53,796 nucleotides of DNA from assembly GCF_013141825.1 (NCBI RefSeq), contig NZ_RZNH01000037.1:1-53796 (forward strand), given 5' to 3'. A model generated the notes under the pieces. The model was not told where the DNA came from. It was given only the letters and a program-made list of their open reading frames with translations, and did no database searches. Shown piece by piece: positions 10,886 through 22,875 of this stretch; the stretch's first letter is position 1, and each line of letters begins with the position of its first letter. Source of the stretch: Marinifilum caeruleilacunae (lineage in GTDB: Bacteria > Bacteroidota > Bacteroidia > Bacteroidales > Marinifilaceae). The position numbers were made by a program, and so were the translations under genes.

Positions 10886-12199
10886 ATGAAAAAACATTTT
10901 ATTTTGCCAATAGCCTTGGTTTTAATTAATGGACTCATTTATTCTTGTTCAAATGATCCGTTTATGGAAAAAGAAGATCAACCAAAAATTGATCAGTCGA
11001 GTGAACCAAATAACGATCCTAAAGTTTTAAAACTTGGTCAAATCATTGCCAAATCATTAAAAAATTCTAATGTTGGTAATTTTATTCAATCAGAAGCAAT
11101 TAAGAAATTTGATGGTGATAATAATTTCATTCTAGCACTCGCCTATAATCAGAAAATAGATAATGAATCTAAAGTAAAGTCTCAAAAAAAAACATTCATT
11201 GAAACTTTATCCATGTACATTAAGTCTGAAAATGATAAAACAAAAACATCAAATTTTGAAACGCCATCACTTTTTAAAGAATTAGAACAAGACTATCCTC
11301 TAATGCAAATTGCAATTCCTGAAATATTTACTGAGAGTGAAGAAGGAATTGACTTTGCTCGAAAACCTCCGCATGTCGTAATACTTCCTATCGATTTTGA
11401 TGAAAAAACAACAACAACGTTAACTGCGATAGATAATGAAGGAAATTCATACCAAATTGATGCTAACGAACCACCCGAGGAACCTGTTATTGTAATAAGT
11501 GAAAATGAAAGATTAGTAGCTATAGTTAAGAACGAACTAGATAATATTAATCATCACATGGGGATTCCTGATTTTGAGACTGAAGACCATTATTATTACC
11601 AAAGAGGCATGGTAATTCAAGAATTTAACGGTCGCGGATTAAATAGCGGTTCCTCTTCCTCTTCCTCTTCCTCTTCCTCTAGATCAAGAAGATACGATAG
11701 AGATCAGAATGACAACTTAGATAACCTATTAAAGGCTAAATTTATTAGTAAATCAGCTCTGCGGAGTGTAGAAAAGTGGACTCAGGGAAAGCCAGAAGTA
11801 AAACTAATTGTTGTATTTGCCAAGGATGACGATAACCAGTTAGGAACACTTACAAAATACCTTGGCAAAAAAGGTTGGTACCATAGAAAATGGTTAAAAC
11901 TTAAAATTGACACCAAAACACTTAACATTCCAATGCTACAATGGAATAAAAATGAATTCGGGGACAGAATGAAATATGTTTTCATTGAAGAAGATGCTAA
12001 CAGAGGTTCTAAAAATATAGACATTGTATTAACATCGAAGATTGATAATCAGAACACAATAAATACTAAAATCACTCTAGAAGTTAATAAAAATGATGAT
12101 GAAATGGGGGAAGCTTTGTTACAATATACTAATACTACAGCTGGAGAAGGCACTAAGCATTCTACTGGAATTTTTGAGTTTTGGGTTAACCAAAAATAA
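10886..12199 (+). CDS. hypothetical lipoprotein with poly-serine tract
   Basis: I do not recognise a family. The 437-residue protein has a lipoprotein signal peptide (hydrophobic segment ending LIYSC, lipid-modified Cys21), so it is probably anchored in the outer or inner membrane. The middle contains an acidic PPEEPVIVISENE stretch. A run of ten serines near residues 256-265 is encoded by an in-frame hexanucleotide repeat and is followed by a basic-acidic linker (RSRRYDRDQND). The C-terminal part looks like a folded beta-rich domain, and its role is unknown. It opens the AT-rich accessory region; relation to the downstream peptide-export genes is not established. Confidence 0.8.
   Translation: MKKHFILPIALVLINGLIYSCSNDPFMEKEDQPKIDQSSEPNNDPKVLKLGQIIAKSLKNSNVGNFIQSEAIKKFDGDNNFILALAYNQKIDNESKVKSQKKTFIETLSMYIKSENDKTKTSNFETPSLFKELEQDYPLMQIAIPEIFTESEEGIDFARKPPHVVILPIDFDEKTTTTLTAIDNEGNSYQIDANEPPEEPVIVISENERLVAIVKNELDNINHHMGIPDFETEDHYYYQRGMVIQEFNGRGLNSGSSSSSSSSSSRSRRYDRDQNDNLDNLLKAKFISKSALRSVEKWTQGKPEVKLIVVFAKDDDNQLGTLTKYLGKKGWYHRKWLKLKIDTKTLNIPMLQWNKNEFGDRMKYVFIEEDANRGSKNIDIVLTSKIDNQNTINTKITLEVNKNDDEMGEALLQYTNTTAGEGTKHSTGIFEFWVNQK
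11651..11680 (+). repeat. hexanucleotide microsatellite (TCCTCT)x5 inside the lipoprotein gene
   Basis: Five exact tandem TCCTCT units encode a serine run. Because the unit is six bases, copy-number changes keep the reading frame and would only lengthen or shorten the serine linker. Confidence 0.9.
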
Positions 12200-12257: not shown

Positions 12258-12905
12258 ATGATATATATATTAACTAGGATTAATTTGATCTTACTTATCC
12301 TTATCTTACTAGCAACACCTGTTCTCGCACAGAAAAAACTCAAAGCATCATTACGAGTAGGAGCAGGCGCCGTACTCAACACAGGAATTGATGGAGTGGG
12401 ATTTAATATGGAACTGCCTATTCAAGCATGTAAGTATTTCGAATTCTCCCCATCTGTTTCCTATGCGCGTATAAAACCCAATTATGAAACAGATTATAAA
12501 CAGCAGGTCTATCTGCAGAACTCGACTAACAATTCAATTTCATATGGTGGACGAACCTATCAATTAGGAAACTCTAATTTCTTTACCTCAAGCAATAGTC
12601 AGTTCGGATTAGATTTGAATGTAAGGTTCAAACCACTTTCATTTCTGTCAAAGCAATTACCATTCGACATTGCTTTAGGTATAGGATATGGTTACAAAAG
12701 CGGTATGGACATCCTGGAAAATTCTTCTGATAATGGGAATTATTGGATTGCACACCGATCGTGGAATTCGATGGAATGGAACCCATTCCTCCTGGATGTA
12801 AACTACCAACTTAATAAGAAACACAAGCTAGGTGTGCATTTTAATATTTACGGTGGTAATGATCATATCAGTCAGTTGGGATTTCATTTTATTACGTGCT
12901 TATAA
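12258..12905 (+). CDS. hypothetical outer-membrane beta-barrel protein
   Basis: This 215-residue protein has an N-terminal signal peptide ending near LATPVLAQ. It then shows alternating hydrophobic/polar strands with aromatic girdle residues and ends in a beta strand (QLGFHFITCL), as small outer-membrane barrels do. No named family is recognised. It follows the lipoprotein gene by 58 bases on the same strand, so the two may be one unit. The cysteine next to the C-terminus is unusual for a barrel. Function is unknown. Confidence 0.75.
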   Translation: MIYILTRINLILLILILLATPVLAQKKLKASLRVGAGAVLNTGIDGVGFNMELPIQACKYFEFSPSVSYARIKPNYETDYKQQVYLQNSTNNSISYGGRTYQLGNSNFFTSSNSQFGLDLNVRFKPLSFLSKQLPFDIALGIGYGYKSGMDILENSSDNGNYWIAHRSWNSMEWNPFLLDVNYQLNKKHKLGVHFNIYGGNDHISQLGFHFITCL

Positions 12906-13058: not shown

Positions 13059-13268
13059 ATGAATTACGAAACATTACTAACACGAGAAAAACACCTGAAA
13101 AAACTCATAGAACAAGAAAGCACAGGCACACCGGAACAGTTAGCCAGCAAGCTAAACACCTCTGTAAGTGCCATATACAGATTAATTAGAACGTTAAAAA
13201 AATTAGGAGAGGAAATCGGCTACTCAAAAATCAAACAAACTTACTACTACAAAAAGCTAACAAAATAG
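13059..13268 (+). CDS. small helix-turn-helix regulator
   Basis: This 69-residue protein contains a predicted winged-helix or HTH_11-type fold. Residues 20-48 (TPEQLASKLNTSVSAIYRLIRTLKKLG) look like a DNA-recognition helix pair, and a short basic beta hairpin (YSKIKQTYYYKKL) follows as a wing. It has no sensor or oligomerisation domain. It lies just upstream of the first peptide gene and points the same way, so I infer it is a local transcription regulator, possibly acting on the inverted repeats at 13399-13478 and 14270-14349. Confidence 0.75.
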   Translation: MNYETLLTREKHLKKLIEQESTGTPEQLASKLNTSVSAIYRLIRTLKKLGEEIGYSKIKQTYYYKKLTK

Positions 13269-13378
13269 AAAATGATGCTTGAATTTTGATCTTATTTAGA
13301 ATGGCATTTTATTTCTACTATAATAATTATTATTAATGCCATTCAGGACTTCTACCTTCCCCCTTCCCCTTGATTCAG

Positions 13379-13551
13379 AATAGACTTAATAAAAATAAGC
13401 AAACTATCATCAAATGATAGTTTGCTTACATAACTTAGTTCTTGAGTTCATTCAAATGTGCACATGATCAAACTCAAGTCCATTGTCTCATGCGAAGAGA
13501 TAAGGGCAAAATTAAAGTTAATTTATTATTAAAACTTAAAATTTTGACAAA
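13379..13551 (+). repeat. duplicated structured leader, copy 1 (upstream of peptide gene 1)
   Basis: This 173-bp segment matches 14250-14422 base for base without gaps, differing at about 13 positions. Both copies end exactly at a peptide start codon. Three symmetric elements are visible: an 11-bp perfect hairpin at 13399-13425, an imperfect 38-bp palindrome at 13441-13478 centred on ATGTGCACAT, and a small TCTC/GAGA hairpin. A weaker similarity about 90 bases further upstream (ATCTTATTTAGAA at 13289 and 14159) suggests the duplicated unit was longer. No consensus TAnnTTTG is found. Confidence 0.8.
13399..13425 (+). promoter_or_regulatory. inverted repeat in peptide leader, copy 1
   Basis: GCAAACTATCA and TGATAGTTTGC are perfect 11-bp arms around a 5-base spacer. 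The copy at 14270-14296 has one mismatch. There is no T run after it, so an operator or RNA structure is more likely than a terminator. Confidence 0.6.
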
Positions 13552-13713
13552 ATGAAAGAATTGAATTTCGAACAAATGGAAAACATCCAGGCTGGCGTAC
13601 CTATGATGGAATATTGTGCAACCATACATATGATTTTCGAACACAATCCTGATCAGAGAGATACTGAAGGAATGCGTTATGCTTTATCAATTTGTTATGG
13701 AGCTGGATATTAA
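13552..13713 (+). CDS. precursor peptide 1, Ala-Gly leader, two cysteines
   Basis: This 53-residue peptide begins MKELNFEQMENIQAG, a leader of the double-glycine type with Ala-Gly at the end, as recognised by C39 peptidases. The predicted 38-residue core carries Cys22 and Cys48 (full-length numbering) and the conserved pattern EYC-x-T-I/V-x-MI-x5-N-x-D-x-R, then a helix-like EGMRYALSIC. It is one of three paralogs and lies 21 bases before peptide gene 2. I infer export and leader removal by the C39 transporter at 18337. Activity (bacteriocin, signal or other) is unknown. Confidence 0.85.
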   Translation: MKELNFEQMENIQAGVPMMEYCATIHMIFEHNPDQRDTEGMRYALSICYGAGY

Positions 13714-13734
13714 TTCAATTATAAATATTATAAA

Positions 13735-13896
13735 ATGAAAGAATTAAGCTTTGAGCAGATGGAGAATATCCAAGCTGGTATTTCTGCAAAAGAATATTGT
13801 AAAACTGTACGTATGATCTACGAAAGTAACCCTGACGAAAGACATTCAGAAGGATTGATGTATGCTATGAATCTTTGTCACGCATTGGGACAATAG
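13735..13896 (+). CDS. precursor peptide 2, Ala-Gly leader, two cysteines
   Basis: This 53-residue paralog of the preceding gene has the leader MKELSFEQMENIQAG and cysteines again at 22 and 48. The core shares EYCKT, MIYE, NPDER, EG and YAMNLC with its siblings but is more basic. It is co-transcribed with peptide 1 and followed at once by a strong terminator. Genes 1 and 2 therefore form a short bicistronic unit, which would suit a two-component peptide, though that is inference. Confidence 0.85.
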   Translation: MKELSFEQMENIQAGISAKEYCKTVRMIYESNPDERHSEGLMYAMNLCHALGQ

Positions 13897-13906
13897 ACCT
13901 CTTTTT

Positions 13907-13944
13907 AAAATATCTGGATTTCTAGTAATTCAGATATTTTTTTT
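13907..13944 (+). terminator. terminator of the peptide 1-2 unit
   Basis: A perfect 10-bp stem AAAATATCTG/CAGATATTTT with a 14-base loop runs into eight T. It starts 10 bases after the stop of peptide gene 2 and separates this unit from peptide 3. The remaining gene-free stretch to 14249 holds a small inverted repeat at 14092-14115 and no gene I can see. Confidence 0.85.
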
Positions 13945-14249
13945 ATTCCTATAACTTGCTAGTTTCAACAAATCGCCATTCATTACATTTCCCCCTCAAA
14001 TCATAACTCTTTCGATTCATACATTTAGTCATCCTTATAAGATTATTTAATAAATGAAGTTTTATTAGCTATTAATGCCATTGATCGGCTAATGTTAAAA
14101 TAGTAGCATTAACATCCCCAAAAAACTTAACAACACAAAAAATGACATTCTATTCTTAATCTTATTTAGAACAAAATGTCTATTTAATTATAATTGTTAT
14201 TCTGTATGTATACTAATCCTTATCTTTTACCAAGTATTACTGCCTACAA

Positions 14250-14422
14250 AATAGACTTAATAAAAATAGGCAAACTATCATAAAGTGACAGTTTGCTTAC
14301 ATAACTTAGTTCTCGAGTTCATTCAAATGTGCACATGAAAAAACTCAAGCTCAATTTCTCATGCGAAGAGATAAGGGCAAAATTAAAGTTATTTTATTAT
14401 TAATACTTAAAATTTTGACAAA
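14250..14422 (+). repeat. duplicated structured leader, copy 2 (upstream of peptide gene 3)
   Basis: This is the second copy of the 173-bp leader described at 13379. The outer hairpin is at 14270-14296 (one mismatch in the stem). The palindrome around ATGTGCACAT is at 14327-14336 within 14312-14349. The spacing of every element to the start codon is identical to copy 1, which argues for a functional leader or operator array and not chance. Confidence 0.8.
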
Positions 14423-14593
14423 ATGAAAGAATTGAATTTTGAACAAATGGAAAACATCCAGGCAGGAGTATCTGCAAAAGAATATTGCAAAACTATTCAA
14501 ATGATTTACGATCATAATGAAGATGAACGCGACACTGAAGGTATGGGTGTAGCAAGAGGTATTTGTAGTTTCTATGGATATCCTGTAGGATAA
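14423..14593 (+). CDS. precursor peptide 3, Ala-Gly leader, two cysteines
   Basis: This 56-residue peptide has the same leader as peptide 1 (MKELNFEQMENIQAG), and Cys22 and Cys48 are conserved. The core is distinct at its C-terminus, which is extended to SFYGYPVG. It is the peptide nearest to the export operon and is preceded by the second copy of the duplicated leader. A hairpin, not a full terminator, separates it from the downstream genes, so some transcripts probably continue into them. Confidence 0.85.
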   Translation: MKELNFEQMENIQAGVSAKEYCKTIQMIYDHNEDERDTEGMGVARGICSFYGYPVG

Positions 14594-14600
14594 TCTCTAT

Positions 14601-14620
14601 TTGGGCTCTTAGGAGCCCAA
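14601..14620 (+). promoter_or_regulatory. hairpin between peptide 3 and the export operon
   Basis: TTGGGCTC and GAGCCCAA form a perfect 8-bp stem with a 4-base loop 8 bases after the peptide stop. No T run follows. It could protect the peptide message, mark a processing site, or act as a partial attenuator so that peptide is made in excess of exporter. Confidence 0.55.
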
Positions 14621-14653
14621 TACTCTCCAAACAAAATAACCTACTATTATTTT

Positions 14654-15889
14654 ATGCTTCACAAATTCATATTTTATCTTGGGTTTTTAATCATAACAAA
14701 TCAAACCTGTTTTTCGCAAAACACACAAAAAATAAAAGGCGAAATTTCATGTTTCAGCGATTCAATTGCCATTGCTTATGCACATATTGGAATATTAGGT
14801 ACAGGCATAGGTACTATTTCTAACATTAACGGAGATTTCGAATTAAAAGGACAATTTAACCTTGATAAAGACACCCTCGTGATATCTCATCTTGAGTACG
14901 AAAAAAAATACATCCCATTAAAAGAATTCGTGGCAGAAATCAATCATATCGACCTTGTAAAAAGTAAATATGAATTAGGAGAGGTTATTGTATTACCTAA
15001 TGAAAAAATAAATGAGATTTTTAAGCAGGTAATTGAAAACTTAAAAATCAACTACCCAGATAAATTGTATCAATGTGAAGCATTCTATCGAGAAGTGCAA
15101 TATGAATTAAAAACTAAAACCAATACCCGACTGATAGAAGCTGCGATAAATATTCAGGATGGTAAGGTTAGTTCTCCCAGAACTAAAATAAAATGCAGTG
15201 TTTTACAACTTCGAAAATCAAAGAACTACACACAAGAACATTGGGGCTCAAAGTTATTGAGCAAATTACTTATAGATTACAATCAATTGTACTATTTACT
15301 TCGAGGCAACCCCACCCGCTGTTACAAAGAACTACTAAGCAAAGGCGATTTGTATTGCAACCCAATTCAATGGGCATATGAAAATAAAAAGGGAACTTTA
15401 AGCCTGAAAAGCTTAATTAAGAAAAAGGGTCAGGAAATTTATGTATTTCAATATGATGTAGGCCCTGAACTGAGATTCAATTTTTACATCAACAAATCAG
15501 ATTTTGCGATTTTACAATTCGATCACGAACTAAAAAATATTCAAAAGCAATCGTATCACTTTACAAAAGTTGAGGATAAATATTACCCCTCATTTTTTAA
15601 ATCTGAGAATATTCAAAGCATACTAAAAGACTCTAAAGGACTAGGAATGACCATAAGCTCATTGAGCTTTGTCAATCATAATCCCGATCGAAAAAATTTT
15701 AAACGCTTACGTTCAAAACACGTCGCCGTTAAGGATCTTGAACTTTACGATCTGAAGATGAAGTACGACGAGTATTTTTGGGCTAGCTACAACATATTAC
15801 TAGACGAGCCGATACACCCAAAAATCATTTCAGATTTAGAACAAGGTAAATCCTTACAAACTCAATTTAAAGAAAACTCAAATCTATAA
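14654..15889 (+). CDS. carboxypeptidase-like regulatory domain protein, paralog 1
   Basis: This 411-residue protein has a signal peptide (ending near TCFSQ), so it is exported to the periplasm or outer membrane. Residues ~25-100 form a CarboxypepD_reg-like beta-sandwich with the typical IKGEISC...AYAHIGILGTGIGTISNINGDF pattern. This domain is common at the N-terminus of Bacteroidota TonB-dependent receptors, but here no receptor barrel follows. The remaining ~300 residues (YQCEAFYREVQ and NPDRKNFKRLRSKHV segments) are not assigned. It is the first gene after the peptides and has a close tandem paralog, so both probably act with the export system. Role unknown. Confidence 0.85.
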   Translation: MLHKFIFYLGFLIITNQTCFSQNTQKIKGEISCFSDSIAIAYAHIGILGTGIGTISNINGDFELKGQFNLDKDTLVISHLEYEKKYIPLKEFVAEINHIDLVKSKYELGEVIVLPNEKINEIFKQVIENLKINYPDKLYQCEAFYREVQYELKTKTNTRLIEAAINIQDGKVSSPRTKIKCSVLQLRKSKNYTQEHWGSKLLSKLLIDYNQLYYLLRGNPTRCYKELLSKGDLYCNPIQWAYENKKGTLSLKSLIKKKGQEIYVFQYDVGPELRFNFYINKSDFAILQFDHELKNIQKQSYHFTKVEDKYYPSFFKSENIQSILKDSKGLGMTISSLSFVNHNPDRKNFKRLRSKHVAVKDLELYDLKMKYDEYFWASYNILLDEPIHPKIISDLEQGKSLQTQFKENSNL

Positions 15890-15914
15890 AAGCGAATTAT
15901 AAATAATTAACTCT

Positions 15915-17150
15915 ATGAGTAATAAACTTTTTATATGTCTTGTTTTTATGCTACTAAGCAAACATGCTTACATGCAAAACACTCAAATAATAAGAGGTCA
16001 AATATCATGTTTGGCCGACACAGTTGCCATTCCCTATGCCCATGTAGGAATCCTGGGAACGGGCATAGGAACTGTTACAAATATTAAGGGCGATTTCGAA
16101 TTAAAAGGGCAGTTCAATCTTGAGAAAGACACCCTAATGGTTTCCCATATTGAGTATGAAAAAAAACTGATTCCTTTAAATGAACTTTTATCTGATACCT
16201 GTTATATAAAACTTGTTAGAAATGAATATTTATTAGCCGATGTTATTGTATTGCCTGACAATAAAAAAGAAGAAATCTTTACAAATGTTATTAAAAATCT
16301 AAAACTAAATTATCCAGGCAAATTGTATCAATGCGAAGCATTCTATAGAGAAGTACAATATCAGGAAAGAACCAAACAACATACCAGGTTAATAGAGTCT
16401 GCTGTTAATATTCAAGATGGGAAAGTAACAGCCCCCCTATCAAAAATCAAGTGCAGCTTGCTGCAATTTCGTAAATCTGACAACTTTACTGAAGAACATT
16501 TGGGTTCTAAACTATTCAAAAAAATGCTTGGTTTTTCTCAAAACTATCTGCACTATTTGTTAGTCGGAAATCCTGTTCGTTATTTCAAAGACAGGCTTCA
16601 CACATCTAAGTTTAATCCTCTCTCCCAAAAATACAAGGATAAAGAATTACAATTTGTTTTATCACATCTGATAAAAAAAACGGATTATGAAATCTATGTT
16701 TTTAAATCGACACAAAGTATACCCTGTACTTTTTATATCAATAGTAAAGATTATGCAATATTAAAGTATGAAGAAGAACTGAGAACTAACACCAGGCTTA
16801 TAGCCAAACGCTCTTACCAATACACAAAGATCGACAACAAATATTATCCCGCGTTCTTCTATAGTGTTAGCATAACAGATTACCTTAAAAGTTCAAAAGG
16901 CTTGGGTATAACTGAAAGTAGTCTAACATTTGTGAATTACAGTCCCGATCGAAAAAAATTCAAACGCTTACGTTCCAAACATGTTGTTCCCAATGAAATA
17001 GATCTTTATGATCAGGAAATGGAATATGATGAAAATTTCTGGACAAATTATAATATACTTCTGGATGAGCCTCTGGAAGAAAAAGTCATTACCGATTTAG
17101 AGAAAAAATCATCACTACAAAGCCAATTCAAAGATAACGCCACCAATTAA
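15915..17150 (+). CDS. carboxypeptidase-like regulatory domain protein, paralog 2
   Basis: This is a 411-residue tandem paralog of the preceding gene with the same domain layout: signal peptide, CarboxypepD_reg-like domain (IRGQISC...AYAHVGILGTGIGTVTNIKGDF-type pattern) and the unassigned C-terminal part with SPDRKKFKRLRSKHV. The two are similar along their whole length, with strongest conservation in the N-terminal domain and the RLRSKHV region. The gap is 25 bases. Duplication with divergence may parallel the multiple peptides, for example one partner per peptide, but this is speculation. Confidence 0.85.
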   Translation: MSNKLFICLVFMLLSKHAYMQNTQIIRGQISCLADTVAIPYAHVGILGTGIGTVTNIKGDFELKGQFNLEKDTLMVSHIEYEKKLIPLNELLSDTCYIKLVRNEYLLADVIVLPDNKKEEIFTNVIKNLKLNYPGKLYQCEAFYREVQYQERTKQHTRLIESAVNIQDGKVTAPLSKIKCSLLQFRKSDNFTEEHLGSKLFKKMLGFSQNYLHYLLVGNPVRYFKDRLHTSKFNPLSQKYKDKELQFVLSHLIKKTDYEIYVFKSTQSIPCTFYINSKDYAILKYEEELRTNTRLIAKRSYQYTKIDNKYYPAFFYSVSITDYLKSSKGLGITESSLTFVNYSPDRKKFKRLRSKHVVPNEIDLYDQEMEYDENFWTNYNILLDEPLEEKVITDLEKKSSLQSQFKDNATN

Positions 17151-17163
17151 AATCTAGAAAAAC

Positions 17164-17757
17164 ATGATACAATTCTTAAGACAGTTAAAATGCAGATATG
17201 CATTATTAATATTTTTATCGATCCTACTTATACTTCGATATACGAGTAGTGGAATTGTTTTTGCGAAAGTAAAGGATTCTGAATTTATTCTTAATAACTT
17301 TCTAATATACAATTACCTTTACAACACAATTGTTTATCTATTAAAAATTGCGGTGGTAACTTTACTCATATTAGGAGGAACACTGCTTTCGGGCTACAAA
17401 TTGAAATCTAAACAAGTTTTAAAAACAGTAATCCTTGCTAATTTCGTATACTTTTTTAGATATATTGCCGTAATCACTTGGGCATCTTTCAATTGGAGTA
17501 CATATAATATGGAATCCTTACGTACCTTCAATTCGAAAACCTTTTTAACTTTGAAATTAGGAGATGCAGATCATATTCTGGCTCAATTCCTTAAATCATT
17601 CAGCTTGTACGATATTATTTTTGTTTTTGCACTGCTTCTTTTAACAACACTTCTTAACGATATCAAATGGAAGCAAAGCACGAAAATTATATTTTCTTCC
17701 TATGTCCCGGCAATTATTGTTTATGCTCTTTTTGTTGTTTTTCTAACAGAACTATAA
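17164..17757 (+). CDS. multi-TM membrane protein of the export cluster
   Basis: This 197-residue integral membrane protein has about five predicted helices (near 13-30, 50-75, 85-110, 145-165 and 175-195). I recognise no family. It lies 13 bases after the second paralog and 38 bases before the thioredoxin-like gene, on the same strand, so it belongs to the operon. Candidate roles are self-protection against the peptides or a partner of the exporter; neither can be shown from the sequence. Confidence 0.75.
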   Translation: MIQFLRQLKCRYALLIFLSILLILRYTSSGIVFAKVKDSEFILNNFLIYNYLYNTIVYLLKIAVVTLLILGGTLLSGYKLKSKQVLKTVILANFVYFFRYIAVITWASFNWSTYNMESLRTFNSKTFLTLKLGDADHILAQFLKSFSLYDIIFVFALLLLTTLLNDIKWKQSTKIIFSSYVPAIIVYALFVVFLTEL

Positions 17758-17795
17758 TAAGCAACTCATTTTTTATCAATTAGCAATGCTTCAAA

Positions 17796-18311
17796 ATGAA
17801 TGATCTAAAAAAAATTCTTCCAGTAGCGCTCTTTGTCATCATTGTAGTGACCTTATTGTTCTTTATTAGCACGAAAAGAAAAGCTAATAAAGAAATCGCC
17901 AGCAATTTTGAAATCATTGATTTTAACGACTTCAATTTTTTAGAACCTGTTGAGGATTATGAATTAAATGAAAATTCAGTGATCTGTTTTTTTGCCAGCG
18001 ACTGTTCTTTATGTTCCTACGAAGCCAAGCAACTCAAAAAAGAAGATTTTGTACCAGAAAACCTTGATTTCATTTGGGTATCATCACAAAATCGTGACAG
18101 TATCGTCTCCTTTATTAAAAGCAATGACATTGCAGGTGTGGAGCATTTCAAATTTGCTCAAATTGAGGCAAGTGTTTTAACCGAAAAATACAATATAAAT
18201 GAATATCCAAAAGGCTTAATCTATAAGAATGGAATACTTTGTCATTCGTTTAAGGGTTTAATCAGTTTGTTTACCATAAAGGAACATTTAAATCAAGAAA
18301 TTCCAAACTAA
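17796..18311 (+). CDS. membrane-anchored thioredoxin-fold protein
   Basis: This 171-residue protein has a single N-terminal membrane helix (about 8-25) and then a thioredoxin-like domain facing the periplasm. The redox motif is C70-S-L-C73 after FFASD, and the cis-proline position is Pro138 in NEYPKGLIY. It resembles TlpA- or MauD-like oxidoreductases. Since all three nearby precursor peptides carry exactly two cysteines at fixed positions, I infer it makes or repairs their disulfide, or reduces another operon component. The family call is solid and the substrate is inferred. Confidence 0.82.
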   Translation: MNDLKKILPVALFVIIVVTLLFFISTKRKANKEIASNFEIIDFNDFNFLEPVEDYELNENSVICFFASDCSLCSYEAKQLKKEDFVPENLDFIWVSSQNRDSIVSFIKSNDIAGVEHFKFAQIEASVLTEKYNINEYPKGLIYKNGILCHSFKGLISLFTIKEHLNQEIPN

Positions 18312-18336
18312 ACACTAACATTCAATCTATAATTTT

Positions 18337-20532
18337 GTGAATCGTAAACTCTATAAAAAAGCAAAACAAACTTTTACTTTACAACACGATTATGCTGATT
18401 GCGGTGTTGCTTGTTTGCTGTCCATTATCAAATATTTTGGTGGTACTGGTAATTTTGAATCATTACGTGAATGGAGCGGAACCAGTAAGCAAGGTACAAG
18501 CCTTCTGGGCTTGTATCAAGCTGCAAAAAAGTCCAATTTGTCTGCAAAAGCCTATCAGGCAGAATTTGAGAATTTATTGGAAACAAAGCACCCACTAATT
18601 TTACACCTTGAGCTTGAAAATGGCCTGGAGCACTATGTTGTATTTTATGGATTTCATAACGATAAACTAGTGATAGGTGATCCTGGCAAAGGGATTTGTT
18701 ATTACACACAAAATGAACTGCTAAAAGTATGGAAGTCGAAAGCTCTGTTAACATTAGAGCCAGAAAAATCCTTCGCCCACAAAGAAGAATCAAAAGAACA
18801 GAAGAGAAATTGGATCTTAAACATGATTCAGGAAGACAGACAAATTTTAATGGTCTCTATTTTTATTGGTGTTTTAATTGCCGGCTTGAGTTTAGCAGTC
18901 TCTGTCTTTAACCAAAAACTGATTGATGACATTTTACCATCAAAGGAGTTTTCGAAAGTTATTATTGCCATAACTGTACTGTGTTTATTGCTTGTTTCTC
19001 ACACTTTTTTAAATGCTATCCGCAATAAATTCTTATACATCCAAAGCCGGGATTTTAACATTCGAATGGTTAATTCTTTTTTTAAACAGTTACTCAATTT
19101 ACCCAAAAGTTTTTTTGACAACAGAAAATCAGGAGATTTAATTGCCAGGCTAAATGACAGTGCCAGAATACAAGCTTTTCTTTCGAAAGTAGCTGGTAAT
19201 TTTATAATTGAGATTCTTATTTTACTGGTTTCAATCCTGGTTCTGTTTTTCTATTCCATCACACATGGAATTCTAACTCTCCTGTTTCTTCCTGTTTACG
19301 CAAGCATTCTGATCGTTTTCAACAAAAAAATTGTTTCAGGACAAAAGAATGTGATGGAACATTATGCCCATAACGAAAGTTTCTACATCAATAGTTTAAA
19401 TGGAATCGAAACAATTAAAAACACCAACACGAATAGTTATTTCGAAAATAAAAACCGATCTATCTACACCAATTTTCAAGACAAAATCTTTACGCTGGGA
19501 AAAATAACCATCAATCTATCTTTTTTGTCGGGGATATTAGGAACAATATACATGGCAAGCATTATTGGCGTTGGAGCACAACATGTAATAACCGATACCA
19601 TTAGTTTAGGAGCCCTAATTGCAATGATTGGCATTTCAACGAGAATTTCACCAGCTTTAACAAGCATAATTGCTATGCTCATACAAGTTCAGGAAGCGAA
19701 GGTAGCCTTTGATCGTTTGTTTGAAATGATTAACATTAATACAAATTCTAAACAGAAAGTCAAATCAATCTCGAAAATTACAGACATCCAAATCAATAAT
19801 CTTAACTTTCGATTTCCAGGAAGATCTCTACTTTTAAAAAACATTAACCTGAAGATACAAAAAGGTGAAATCACAAGTCTTCTTGGAGAATCAGGTACTG
19901 GAAAAAGTACTTTGTCCAGTATATTACAGAAATTCTATTTTCCTGAAAATGGAGATATTCTCATGAATGAGATTCCTCTCAATGAGATCTCCAATTCCAA
20001 TCTGAGATCACGAATAGGACACATTCCTCAAAGCATTCATATTTTCAATAGCACACTAGCCTTTAACATTTTGCTTGAAGACATAAATGAACAAAACTTT
20101 ACAGAACTTAAGGCATTTTGCGAAAAGTGGGGTTTTAACAAATTCTTTGACCTATTACCACAAGGATTATCTACAAAAGTGGGTGAAGATGGTATTAACT
20201 TATCGGGCGGCCAAAAGCAACTATTGGCATTTGCCAGAATATTCTATAGAAAACCTGATTTTATCATTCTGGATGAAGCCACCTCTGCTATGGATCGGCT
20301 TACTGAACAGTTTGTTTTTACATTGCTCGAAAAAGTAAAACCAGACGTTGCCATATTAATCATTACACATAGAATCCACATTTTAAAAAGAATTTCAGAC
20401 CAGATATATATTCTGGATCACAAAACAACAGATCATCATGGAACCCATGAAGATTTAATGAAATACGATAATTTCTATAGTCAGTTTTGGAAAGAGTTAC
20501 ATATTGAATCAAACCAACTATCTGCACATTGA
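18337..20532 (+). CDS. C39 peptidase-containing ABC exporter
   Basis: This 731-residue protein combines leader-peptide cleavage with ATP-driven export. The N-terminal C39 domain has oxyanion Gln16, nucleophile Cys22 in DCGVAC, His99 in LEHYVVFYG and Asp115 in IGDP. About six membrane helices span ~165-440. The ATPase domain has Walker A GESGTGKST near 516, LSGGQ near 621, Walker B IILDEATSAMD near 643 and the H-loop THR near 676. The start is GTG, needed to keep the peptidase intact. It is the natural processing exporter for the Ala-Gly-leader peptides upstream. Confidence 0.95.
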   Translation: MNRKLYKKAKQTFTLQHDYADCGVACLLSIIKYFGGTGNFESLREWSGTSKQGTSLLGLYQAAKKSNLSAKAYQAEFENLLETKHPLILHLELENGLEHYVVFYGFHNDKLVIGDPGKGICYYTQNELLKVWKSKALLTLEPEKSFAHKEESKEQKRNWILNMIQEDRQILMVSIFIGVLIAGLSLAVSVFNQKLIDDILPSKEFSKVIIAITVLCLLLVSHTFLNAIRNKFLYIQSRDFNIRMVNSFFKQLLNLPKSFFDNRKSGDLIARLNDSARIQAFLSKVAGNFIIEILILLVSILVLFFYSITHGILTLLFLPVYASILIVFNKKIVSGQKNVMEHYAHNESFYINSLNGIETIKNTNTNSYFENKNRSIYTNFQDKIFTLGKITINLSFLSGILGTIYMASIIGVGAQHVITDTISLGALIAMIGISTRISPALTSIIAMLIQVQEAKVAFDRLFEMININTNSKQKVKSISKITDIQINNLNFRFPGRSLLLKNINLKIQKGEITSLLGESGTGKSTLSSILQKFYFPENGDILMNEIPLNEISNSNLRSRIGHIPQSIHIFNSTLAFNILLEDINEQNFTELKAFCEKWGFNKFFDLLPQGLSTKVGEDGINLSGGQKQLLAFARIFYRKPDFIILDEATSAMDRLTEQFVFTLLEKVKPDVAILIITHRIHILKRISDQIYILDHKTTDHHGTHEDLMKYDNFYSQFWKELHIESNQLSAH

Positions 20533-21791
20533 AAAGATTATACCATATCGCGTACCAAGTAGAGGAAATCTGGCACTCCTTAAAGGAACACAAAAAAAGA
20601 AATCTCTTAACAGGATTTGGAGTCTCCTGGGGGATTTTCATTTTGGTTCTTCTAGTAGGAGCAGGAAATGGGCTTCAAAAAGGAGTAATGGTTCTTTTCC
20701 AGGATTATACTCAAAATAGTTTTTGGATTTATGGTGGCCAAACCAACATTTCAAAGCCCGGACAAAATTCTGGTAGGCATATCCGCTTTAAGCAACAAGA
20801 TATATCTGTGCTGAAAAGTTGGTATCCTGAAATTGAACATACTTCACCTGAGTTAAGATACAATGGAAAACTTTTACACTCTAAAAGCCATAGTTATCAA
20901 AGGTTTGAATGTTATGGAATAAATAGCAGTTATTTTAAAATTAAAACCTACAACACATCACAAGGCAGATATTTCAATCCTTTAGACGATCAGCAAAACA
21001 GAAATATTGCAATTATTGGCAAAGACATTGCCGAAGGATTATTTGATAAAGAAGATGTAGTTGGCAGGTATTTTTGTATGGATGGCGTATGGTTTCAAAT
21101 TATTGGAGTTCTGGCGGAAAAGTCACTCTTTTCAAATAATAAAAGAAACATCTACATCCCATTCGGCACACTTCAAAATCATTTTTTTAAAGACAAGAGC
21201 ATGAATTGTTTCGCCCTTTCTTTAAAAGCTGAAAATTCGGCCAGGAGATTCGAAGAGTCAATTAAAAACTACCTGTCGAAAAATTTTCGATTTGATTTAG
21301 AAGATAAAAATGCAATTTACATTAACAACGTACAGTCTAGTGCCAGTTCAATTAAAGACTTGTTTAAAACCATTAACGGTTTTCTTTGGTTGGTAGGATT
21401 CTGTCTGCTATTAAGTGGTATTGTAGGCGTTAGTAACATTATGCTCGTGGTTGTCAAGGAAAGAACGCAGGAAATTGGTATAAGAAAAGCCATAGGAGCG
21501 AGTCCCAAAAGTATACTTTACATGATTTTGAATGAATCGATAATCATTACCTTCATTTCAGGAATCACAGGTCTGCTGGCTGCTACATTAATTGTGAACC
21601 TTATTAATTTAATAATTGGAGATATGATTTCCGACAGCAATTCTATATTCAAAGGACTGGATGTAAATATTCCCATTGCCATTGGAGCCATTATCACATT
21701 GGTTATCTCAGGTGCTATTGCTGGATTATATCCTGCCAGAAAAGCCGCATCTGTCTTGCCTATAAAAGCCATAAGCTCAGAAAACCCTTAA
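20529..21791 (+). CDS. MacB/FtsX-type ABC transporter permease without an ATPase domain
   Basis: This 420-residue permease starts with TTG overlapping the stop of the C39 exporter by four bases (TTGA). The start is supported because it includes the first membrane helix (27-45). A periplasmic core domain follows (about 48-275), then three C-terminal helices of the FtsX type near 284-306, 337-360 and 379-403, with ERTQEIGIRKAIGA between them. Such permeases need a separate LolD/MacB-type ATPase; no such gene is present in this operon. The permease may borrow an ATPase from elsewhere. Its partner is presumably the HlyD-like protein that follows. Confidence 0.88.
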   Translation: MKRLYHIAYQVEEIWHSLKEHKKRNLLTGFGVSWGIFILVLLVGAGNGLQKGVMVLFQDYTQNSFWIYGGQTNISKPGQNSGRHIRFKQQDISVLKSWYPEIEHTSPELRYNGKLLHSKSHSYQRFECYGINSSYFKIKTYNTSQGRYFNPLDDQQNRNIAIIGKDIAEGLFDKEDVVGRYFCMDGVWFQIIGVLAEKSLFSNNKRNIYIPFGTLQNHFFKDKSMNCFALSLKAENSARRFEESIKNYLSKNFRFDLEDKNAIYINNVQSSASSIKDLFKTINGFLWLVGFCLLLSGIVGVSNIMLVVVKERTQEIGIRKAIGASPKSILYMILNESIIITFISGITGLLAATLIVNLINLIIGDMISDSNSIFKGLDVNIPIAIGAIITLVISGAIAGLYPARKAASVLPIKAISSENP

Positions 21792-21804
21792 TCTTATCTG
21801 CAAC

Positions 21805-22875
21805 ATGAAAAACAAAAGCCTCATCATAACTTTGATTATCCTATCCCTTTGTGTTGGATTTGTATGGTTACACCAAAGCAAAAATAAATATCGTTTTAGC
21901 AATACAGAACAAGCTAGCTTCACTGATCTTGAGTTAAAACAGTTTATTTCAGGCTACCTTGTACCCGAAAGAGAGGTTCAAATTAAATCCCAAATTTCAG
22001 GAATTCTAAAACAGATACATGTAAAAGCGGGCGATACCATAAAAAGAGGCGATTTAATAGCTGAAGTGAGTGTACTGCCAAATCCTCAAAATATTGAGAC
22101 TGCATCGAAAACGCTTACCACCTGTCAAATCAATTATAACAAGTGCAAAAAAGAATATGAGCAATACAAAAAGCTCTATGAAAAAAAAGTAGTTGCCGAA
22201 CAAGAATTTGATCAATATACCGATGCCTATTTAATCAGCCAGGAGGAATTAAAATCTGCAAAAAAGCAACTGGAAATCATCAAAACAGGATATTCAAAAG
22301 ATCAGGAAAACATTCCTAATTTTATACGTTCTACCGTATCGGGAACCGTTCTTGAAATTCCTTTAAAAGAAGGTGCGAGTATTACCGAACGTAATAACTT
22401 CAACGAAGGAAGCAACTTGGCGAGTATTGCCAATTTACAAAGCCTTATTTTTAAGGCCAAAGTCAATGAATCTGACATTTCATATTTGAAAAAGGGAATG
22501 ATTTTCAACCTGGAAATTAGTGCTTTAAAAAACAAAAACATTACGGCTGAATTAACTCACATCACGCCCAAAGCCAAAGAGGAAAATGGGATTATGAAAT
22601 TCGATATTGAAGCCAAAGTTAGTAATGGCAAACACATTCAACTCTATCCCGGTTTTTCAGCTGTTGCAGAAATGATTCTTGACAGGCGGGATAGTGTTCT
22701 CACCATAAAAGAACGAAACCTGATTTTTAAGAACGACAGTATTTATGTAGAGCTTCTTGATGAGCAATATAAAAAACAAAAAAGAGTAGTGAAAACAGGA
22801 TTATCCGATGGTCTTAGAATTGAAATATTAGATGGTTTAAGCCTGGAAGATAAAGTTGTTGTTCAGAAAAATTAA
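21805..22875 (+). CDS. HlyD/MacA-type periplasmic adaptor
   Basis: This 356-residue membrane-fusion protein has an N-terminal anchor helix (6-24). Two half lipoyl motifs follow (the first near 50-90 with VQIKSQISGILKQIHVKAGD), separated by a coiled-coil hairpin (about 95-160), then beta-barrel regions. Such adaptors bridge inner-membrane transporters to a TolC-like channel. It could serve the C39 exporter or the MacB-type permease. No TolC homolog is seen here, so an outer-membrane channel would come from elsewhere. It closes the operon; thiL follows with its own promoter. Confidence 0.9.
   Translation: MKNKSLIITLIILSLCVGFVWLHQSKNKYRFSNTEQASFTDLELKQFISGYLVPEREVQIKSQISGILKQIHVKAGDTIKRGDLIAEVSVLPNPQNIETASKTLTTCQINYNKCKKEYEQYKKLYEKKVVAEQEFDQYTDAYLISQEELKSAKKQLEIIKTGYSKDQENIPNFIRSTVSGTVLEIPLKEGASITERNNFNEGSNLASIANLQSLIFKAKVNESDISYLKKGMIFNLEISALKNKNITAELTHITPKAKEENGIMKFDIEAKVSNGKHIQLYPGFSAVAEMILDRRDSVLTIKERNLIFKNDSIYVELLDEQYKKQKRVVKTGLSDGLRIEILDGLSLEDKVVVQKN

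Follow-up and report, generated by a model that had tools for sequence, protein, structure and literature searches.

The bacteroidetocins, which make up class IIf of the bacteriocins, are encoded in regions comprising a transmembrane (TM) protein, a thiol oxidoreductase, a C39-peptidase ABC exporter and a peptide with a leader of 15 or 16 residues (Coyne et al. 2019, PMC6671954; partial text). Whether these peptides cross the outer membrane actively or leave the cell by lysis was left undecided in the accessible part of that paper. We analysed a contig of 53,796 nucleotides from Marinifilum caeruleilacunae (NZ_RZNH01000037.1, positions 1 to 53,796; hereafter the window), in which positions 13059 to 22875 hold three small peptide genes followed by a same-strand run of seven genes. 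A first-pass annotation had recognised a leader-peptide export system here and could match it to nothing described. This judgement holds only in part: the TM protein, oxidoreductase, C39 exporter and short-leader peptides correspond to the bacteroidetocin set (PMC6671954), and the two CarbopepD_reg proteins, a MacB-type permease, an adaptor, a helix-turn-helix (HTH) gene and an RNA leader are additions to it. The existence of the bacteroidetocin region rules out the stronger idea that no related system is known. With a probability of roughly 0.63, we read the locus as a bacteroidetocin-like (class IIf-like) peptide-bacteriocin locus of the Marinifilaceae with an exchangeable specificity module. 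Every feature given below between 13059 and 22875 of the window lies on the plus strand.

The precursor genes (13552–13713 and 13735–13896, 53 residues each; 14423–14593, 56 residues) were found where the first-pass annotation had placed them, as borne out by the list of open reading frames (ORFs), and the common leader it described is identical in all three save for N or S at residue 5, with Cys22 and Cys48 invariant. Synonymous differences exceed non-synonymous ones in all six pairs formed by these peptides and that of Marinifilum fragile (pS 0.57–0.87, pN 0.16–0.24), which marks them as genuine genes; no further copy was detected in the genome at E ≤ 0.001 (three matches in all). The leader, residues 1 to 15, ends in AG in the window and in GG in the M. 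fragile orthologue, leaving window cores of 38, 38 and 41 residues, for which average masses of 4413.0, 4388.0 and 4632.1 Da are calculated with one disulfide. Nine precursor leaders from seven related loci are likewise all 15 residues long, eight ending in GG and one in AG, and this comparison lends good support to the proposal that the peptides are probably cleaved after Gly15 and exported by the C39 exporter. The cores at the related loci comprise about 30–43 residues with two cysteines and are otherwise highly divergent. An AlphaFold2 model of peptide 3, built from nine sequences (pLDDT 85.2), places a helix at residues 6–13 of the leader and core helices at 18–31 and 39–50, with Cys22 in one core helix and Cys48 in the other. 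The single disulfide proposed beforehand is plausible given this arrangement and the co-encoded CxxC oxidoreductase, and the core may be a helical hairpin closed by a Cys22–Cys48 bond.

These cores represent a new peptide type, [E/D]YC...C (hereafter YC), found outside the Marinifilaceae at five loci (L055, L093, L101, L117 and L125). They were also compared by reading with class IIa (pediocin-like) bacteriocins, whose YGNGVxC motif is absent from all three, and this assignment was rejected. A search of the phylum for YC peptides returned 6 of 395 genomes at E ≤ 1e-3, the core itself being matched in three (the genome under study, G184 and G408) and the match being confined to the leader in G145, G170 and G381. 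YC cores with a longer type of leader were observed at L166 (9600–10700, two in tandem) and L167 (9150–9800), with no exporter, oxidoreductase or Carb match nearby. A Bacteroidaceae locus (L122, 7416–9322) encodes four GG peptides, all of which have cysteine pairs of the CLNC and CxPC kind.

The exporter, a C39-peptidase ABC transporter (PCAT; 18337–20532), consists of C39, membrane and ATPase domains (PF03412, PF00664, PF00005) and scores 394.5 bits against TIGR01193, below the cut-off of 523.85. Its Cys22, His99 and Asp115 are intact, as first noted, and invariant among eight exporter homologues. Upstream lie the thiol oxidoreductase (17796–18311), with a CSLC motif and matches to AhpC/TSA and thioredoxin models that both fall below gathering cut-offs, and, at the position of the bacteroidetocin TM gene according to hydropathy and alignment, a TM protein (17164–17757) without a Pfam or NCBIfam match. 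We read about five TM segments in the latter, from six hydropathy peaks reported by a script of which two overlap. The oxidoreductase has a single N-terminal TM segment, and peptide oxidation may therefore occur in the periplasm. The association of these genes was surveyed in a scan of GTDB genomes in which 80 loci were kept of at least 546 confirmed; 3 lacking an exporter ORF and 22 with too little upstream sequence, among them the Carb-bearing YC locus L101, were left out, giving 55 loci each comprising the exporter ORF and 3.5 kb upstream. The TM protein (by hidden Markov model match) was found in 53 of these, the oxidoreductase in 54 and a GG-type peptide in 48.

A search of 57 Marinifilaceae genomes revealed an exporter clade of at least 39% identity in eight, the genome under study included, while the other matches listed reach at most 32%; among the matches listed from the GTDB scan, the closest exporters are those of M. 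fragile (87%) and Labilibaculum (81%). Loss of the core cysteines or of the exporter linkage in relatives had been named beforehand as grounds for abandoning the proposal; the cysteines and the linkage both recur in the family. Seven of the eight loci adjoin the suf operon, that of G002 lying elsewhere (sufB, thiL and pheS are presumptive gene names, given from the look of the sequences). Comparison of loci, with peptide 3 as the core of the window, revealed a pattern of modular exchange, identity breaking at two places along the locus. Between the window and G003, of the same genus, SufB (99%), HTH protein (77%) and adaptor (82%) are alike, while core (9%), Carb (29%), TM protein (24%), oxidoreductase (19%) and PCAT (39%) are not; the middle part of G003 resembles instead G010, of another genus (core 52%, Carb 76%, TM protein 79%, oxidoreductase 79%, PCAT 88%). 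Between the window and G013, oxidoreductase (76%, read in G013 as a 115-residue ORF), PCAT (81%), MacB (85%) and adaptor (82%) are conserved, yet core (19%), Carb (28%) and TM protein (38%) are not. The oxidoreductase of G012 did not enter this comparison; it is present in L127. Since peptide, Carb and TM protein diverge jointly while the genes for oxidation and export and the flanks stay alike, the three look like a swappable specificity module, as would be expected, judging from these sequences, of a toxin with specific partners. Publications on both Marinifilum and bacteriocins, judged by title and the beginning of the abstract, described no such locus. In the window, the stretch between sufB and the HTH gene holds lipoprotein-like and outer-membrane-like genes (10886–12199 and 12258–12905), without a significant BLAST relative among the seven cargo proteins compared.

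CarbA (14654–15889) combines a signal-like N-terminus, a CarbopepD_reg (NTE) domain (PF13715) and a C-terminal domain, and is followed by its paralogue CarbB (15915–17150; 57% identical). The AlphaFold2 model (pLDDT 82.6) predicts a LolA/LolB-like fold for residues 115–357, with low structural TM-scores; no Lol family appeared among the Pfam matches of 15 Carb members at E ≤ 0.5. A sequence search of the PDB matched the N-terminal domain alone, in SusC-type and TonB-linked receptors, together with one weak other match; this domain is also common to SusC-type proteins. Membership in the BamP family was rejected, as CarbA scores 36 bits against an NF053692 cut-off of 230, through its N-terminal domain only, with the C-terminal parts unaligned; BamP matches at E ≤ 1e-15 occur in 11 of 118 genomes of the phylum, and the genome under study has none. 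CarbopepD proteins accompany YC cores, and a homologue of CarbA (51% identical) is present in G012, in a stretch where no YC-type peptide was seen. G001 carries a Carb-Carb-TM-oxidoreductase set, next to which neither a peptide nor an exporter was detected. Pairwise dN/dS values among such orphan sets, where computable, range from 0.08 to 0.45 (0.08–0.22 for Carb and oxidoreductase genes, up to 0.45 for the TM gene). We regard CarbA and CarbB as the strongest candidates for an immunity or carrier function. LolA serves the MacB-related LolCDE complex, and the Carb proteins could by analogy be periplasmic carriers instead of immunity proteins, receiving the peptide as it leaves the PCAT, keeping it bound during oxidation and passing it to a MacB-adaptor pump. 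The predicted LolA/LolB-like C-terminal domain, the presence of a MacB permease gene in this run and the covariation of Carb with the peptide all favour this role, which we regard as possible though on balance unlikely, because the Carb-bearing YC loci outside the Marinifilaceae that are long enough to judge (L055, L093 and L117) have no MacB or RND gene within 6 kb and G001 keeps Carb genes without an adjacent peptide or exporter.

The last two genes encode a MacB-type permease (20529–21791), with PF12704 and PF02687 only, and a MacA/RND-type periplasmic adaptor (21805–22875), which exceeds the TIGR01730 cut-off of 94.9 with 135.6 bits; with them the seven-gene run of the first-pass annotation is confirmed from 14654 to 22875. 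MacAB-TolC is known to carry a periplasmic peptide out of the cell once disulfide formation is complete (PMC5985334; partial text), and the pair suggests a second, outer-membrane export step. As the permease has no ATPase domain, another locus would have to supply its motor. A role of MacB-type transporters in resistance to peptides is also described in the available text of the same source, so that the pair, which adjoins the exporter, might instead be a self-resistance pump of the LanFEG/BceAB kind directed against the peptides. We find this doubtful, because permease and adaptor track the export genes and not the peptide type: between the window and G013 they retain 85% and 82% identity over a core of 19%.

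At the head of the locus lie a small HTH_11 regulator gene (13059–13268; PF08279, E 1.1e-7) and two copies of a structured element of about 125 nucleotides (13383–13507 and 14254–14378), which precede peptide genes 1 and 3 and not 2. Both copies are among the eight seed sequences of a covariance model, R1, and score 144.2 and 141.1 bits against it. Among these eight elements, 10 of 25 pairs change on both sides, the structure having been derived from the same alignment. Under strict filters R1 detected the element in 18 of 97 relatives, every one of which belongs to the Marinifilaceae. In the 22 elements at E ≤ 1e-8, whose alignment was fitted to R1 and whose sequences are related, 16 of 25 pairs show changes in both partners, and none of 500 shuffles (0.172) reached the observed covariation score of 0.355. 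No Rfam match was found at E ≤ 1 between positions 12900 and 14700. In the window, helix H1 scores as an intrinsic terminator on the minus strand only; a T run follows it at G002c, G003b and G026b. Fifteen further loci carry the element, 12 at the suf/thiL site and 3 elsewhere, with varied cargo, and an HTH homologue is listed near it in 13; because the HTH-RNA unit recurs before varied cargo, it seems to be a control element that exchangeable cargos have in common. Across the Marinifilaceae, HTH gene and covarying leader RNA (the window; L144–L158) precede lipoprotein-like genes and GG-type peptides, and the cargo presumably includes, in L148, a gene bearing a radical-SAM-like CxxxCxxC motif and, in L157, lanthipeptide-like genes. 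A second chromosomal site for the unit was observed in L154, L155 and L157, near a gene that we take to be pheS. At the suf/thiL site, many loci share a conserved gene of about 160 residues (MKNNDLIQV...; L144, 11625–12122, and equivalents). That the peptides are signals to the producer's own population and not toxins, the response circuit being formed by HTH gene and RNA leader, fits the position of both ahead of the peptides and the three paralogues in one genome, and is nonetheless improbable, because cores diverge strongly among close relatives while the HTH protein stays similar (9% and 77% between the window and G003), the same unit also heads cargo unlike a GG peptide, and no receptor gene was recognised among the locus genes with Pfam or NCBIfam.

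Under the bacteriocin reading, the PCAT would remove the leader after Gly15 and deliver the core of 38–41 residues to the periplasm, where the membrane-anchored CSLC oxidoreductase would join Cys22 to Cys48 and pin the two helices. Binding of CarbA and CarbB to the core, or to the target of the core in the outer membrane, would protect the producer. Passage of the folded peptide across the outer membrane would be driven by the MacB permease and its adaptor together with a TolC and an ATPase from elsewhere, and the exported peptide would act on related Bacteroidota. Several observations weigh against this reading. In the window the cores are acidic, with charges from −1.1 to −3.2, whereas bacteroidetocins A and B are somewhat basic. 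Regions A and B share four genes with no sign of an immunity protein in the available text (PMC6671954). Full-length relatives of the window peptides were found by profile search in only 2 of 58 relatives (the genome under study and M. fragile), two more matching in the leader alone, and no exporter, oxidoreductase or Carb gene lies within the fetched stretch at the G184 and G408 YC sites, which have the longer leader. The YC locus L125 has no Carb gene, and the LolA fold, predicted with low TM-scores, would suit a carrier as well as an immunity protein. Orphan immunity is not clean either, because the orphan sets retain TM and oxidoreductase genes, which bacteroidetocin production needs, and their dN/dS may reflect time before exporter loss. 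In G002, with a set like that of G001, a candidate AG-type peptide lies some 3 kb upstream of the set, and the Carb-Carb-Carb-TM-oxidoreductase set of G012 lies directly downstream of a complete locus; G001 is the only clean orphan set. Finally, no TolC was seen in the locus beside the ATPase-less MacB, which lies downstream in 5 of the 77 PCAT loci with an exporter ORF, some of them ended by contig ends, and is thus not a general part of such loci.

A bolder extension, which we consider speculative and unlikely, would make CarbA and CarbB the first members of a novel class of bacteriocin immunity proteins. On this account they would be secreted proteins of NTE-LolA-like build, with paralogues encoded elsewhere in these genomes, that protect or imitate some part of the machinery building the outer membrane when disulfide-pinned hairpin peptides attack; that part could be BamA, much as darobactin is blocked by BamP, or the Lol route. 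Peptide, Carb and TM genes would form a swappable attack-and-protection cassette under a multi-cargo HTH-RNA unit. No LolA-type or CarbopepD-type bacteriocin immunity turned up among the publications listed by literature searches. For both the exit of bacteroidetocin-type peptides from the Gram-negative cell and the self-protection of the producer, the locus offers candidates, in MacB with its adaptor and in the Carb proteins respectively, and it adds a new type of peptide core and an RNA leader that covaries and matches no Rfam family.

Of the described systems, MacAB-TolC shares with the locus a MacB periplasmic core with FtsX permease and a MacA-like adaptor, and differs in that neither an ATPase domain nor a TolC was seen in the locus. 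The fold predicted for CarbA 115–357 resembles the periplasmic lipoprotein carriers LolA and LolB, to which it is unlike in its fusion to an NTE domain and in the absence of a Lol family by Pfam. Against the BamP family (NF053692; Flavobacterium johnsoniae BAM, PMC12611786, partial text) CarbA falls far below the cut-off, with the C-terminal parts unaligned. The closest likeness, in gene set and description, is to the bacteroidetocins of class IIf, which kill Bacteroidota through BamA: a Bacteroidota host, a 15-residue leader with a double-glycine-type end, at least two core cysteines, and a TM protein, thiol oxidoreductase and C39 exporter encoded together. It differs from them in the AG leader end, the acidic YC cores, the two CarbopepD/LolA-like proteins, MacB with its adaptor, the HTH gene and the RNA leader. 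The core gene set is thus already known, and what is new is its extension by Carb proteins, MacB and adaptor, an apparently swappable module, and an HTH gene with an RNA leader.
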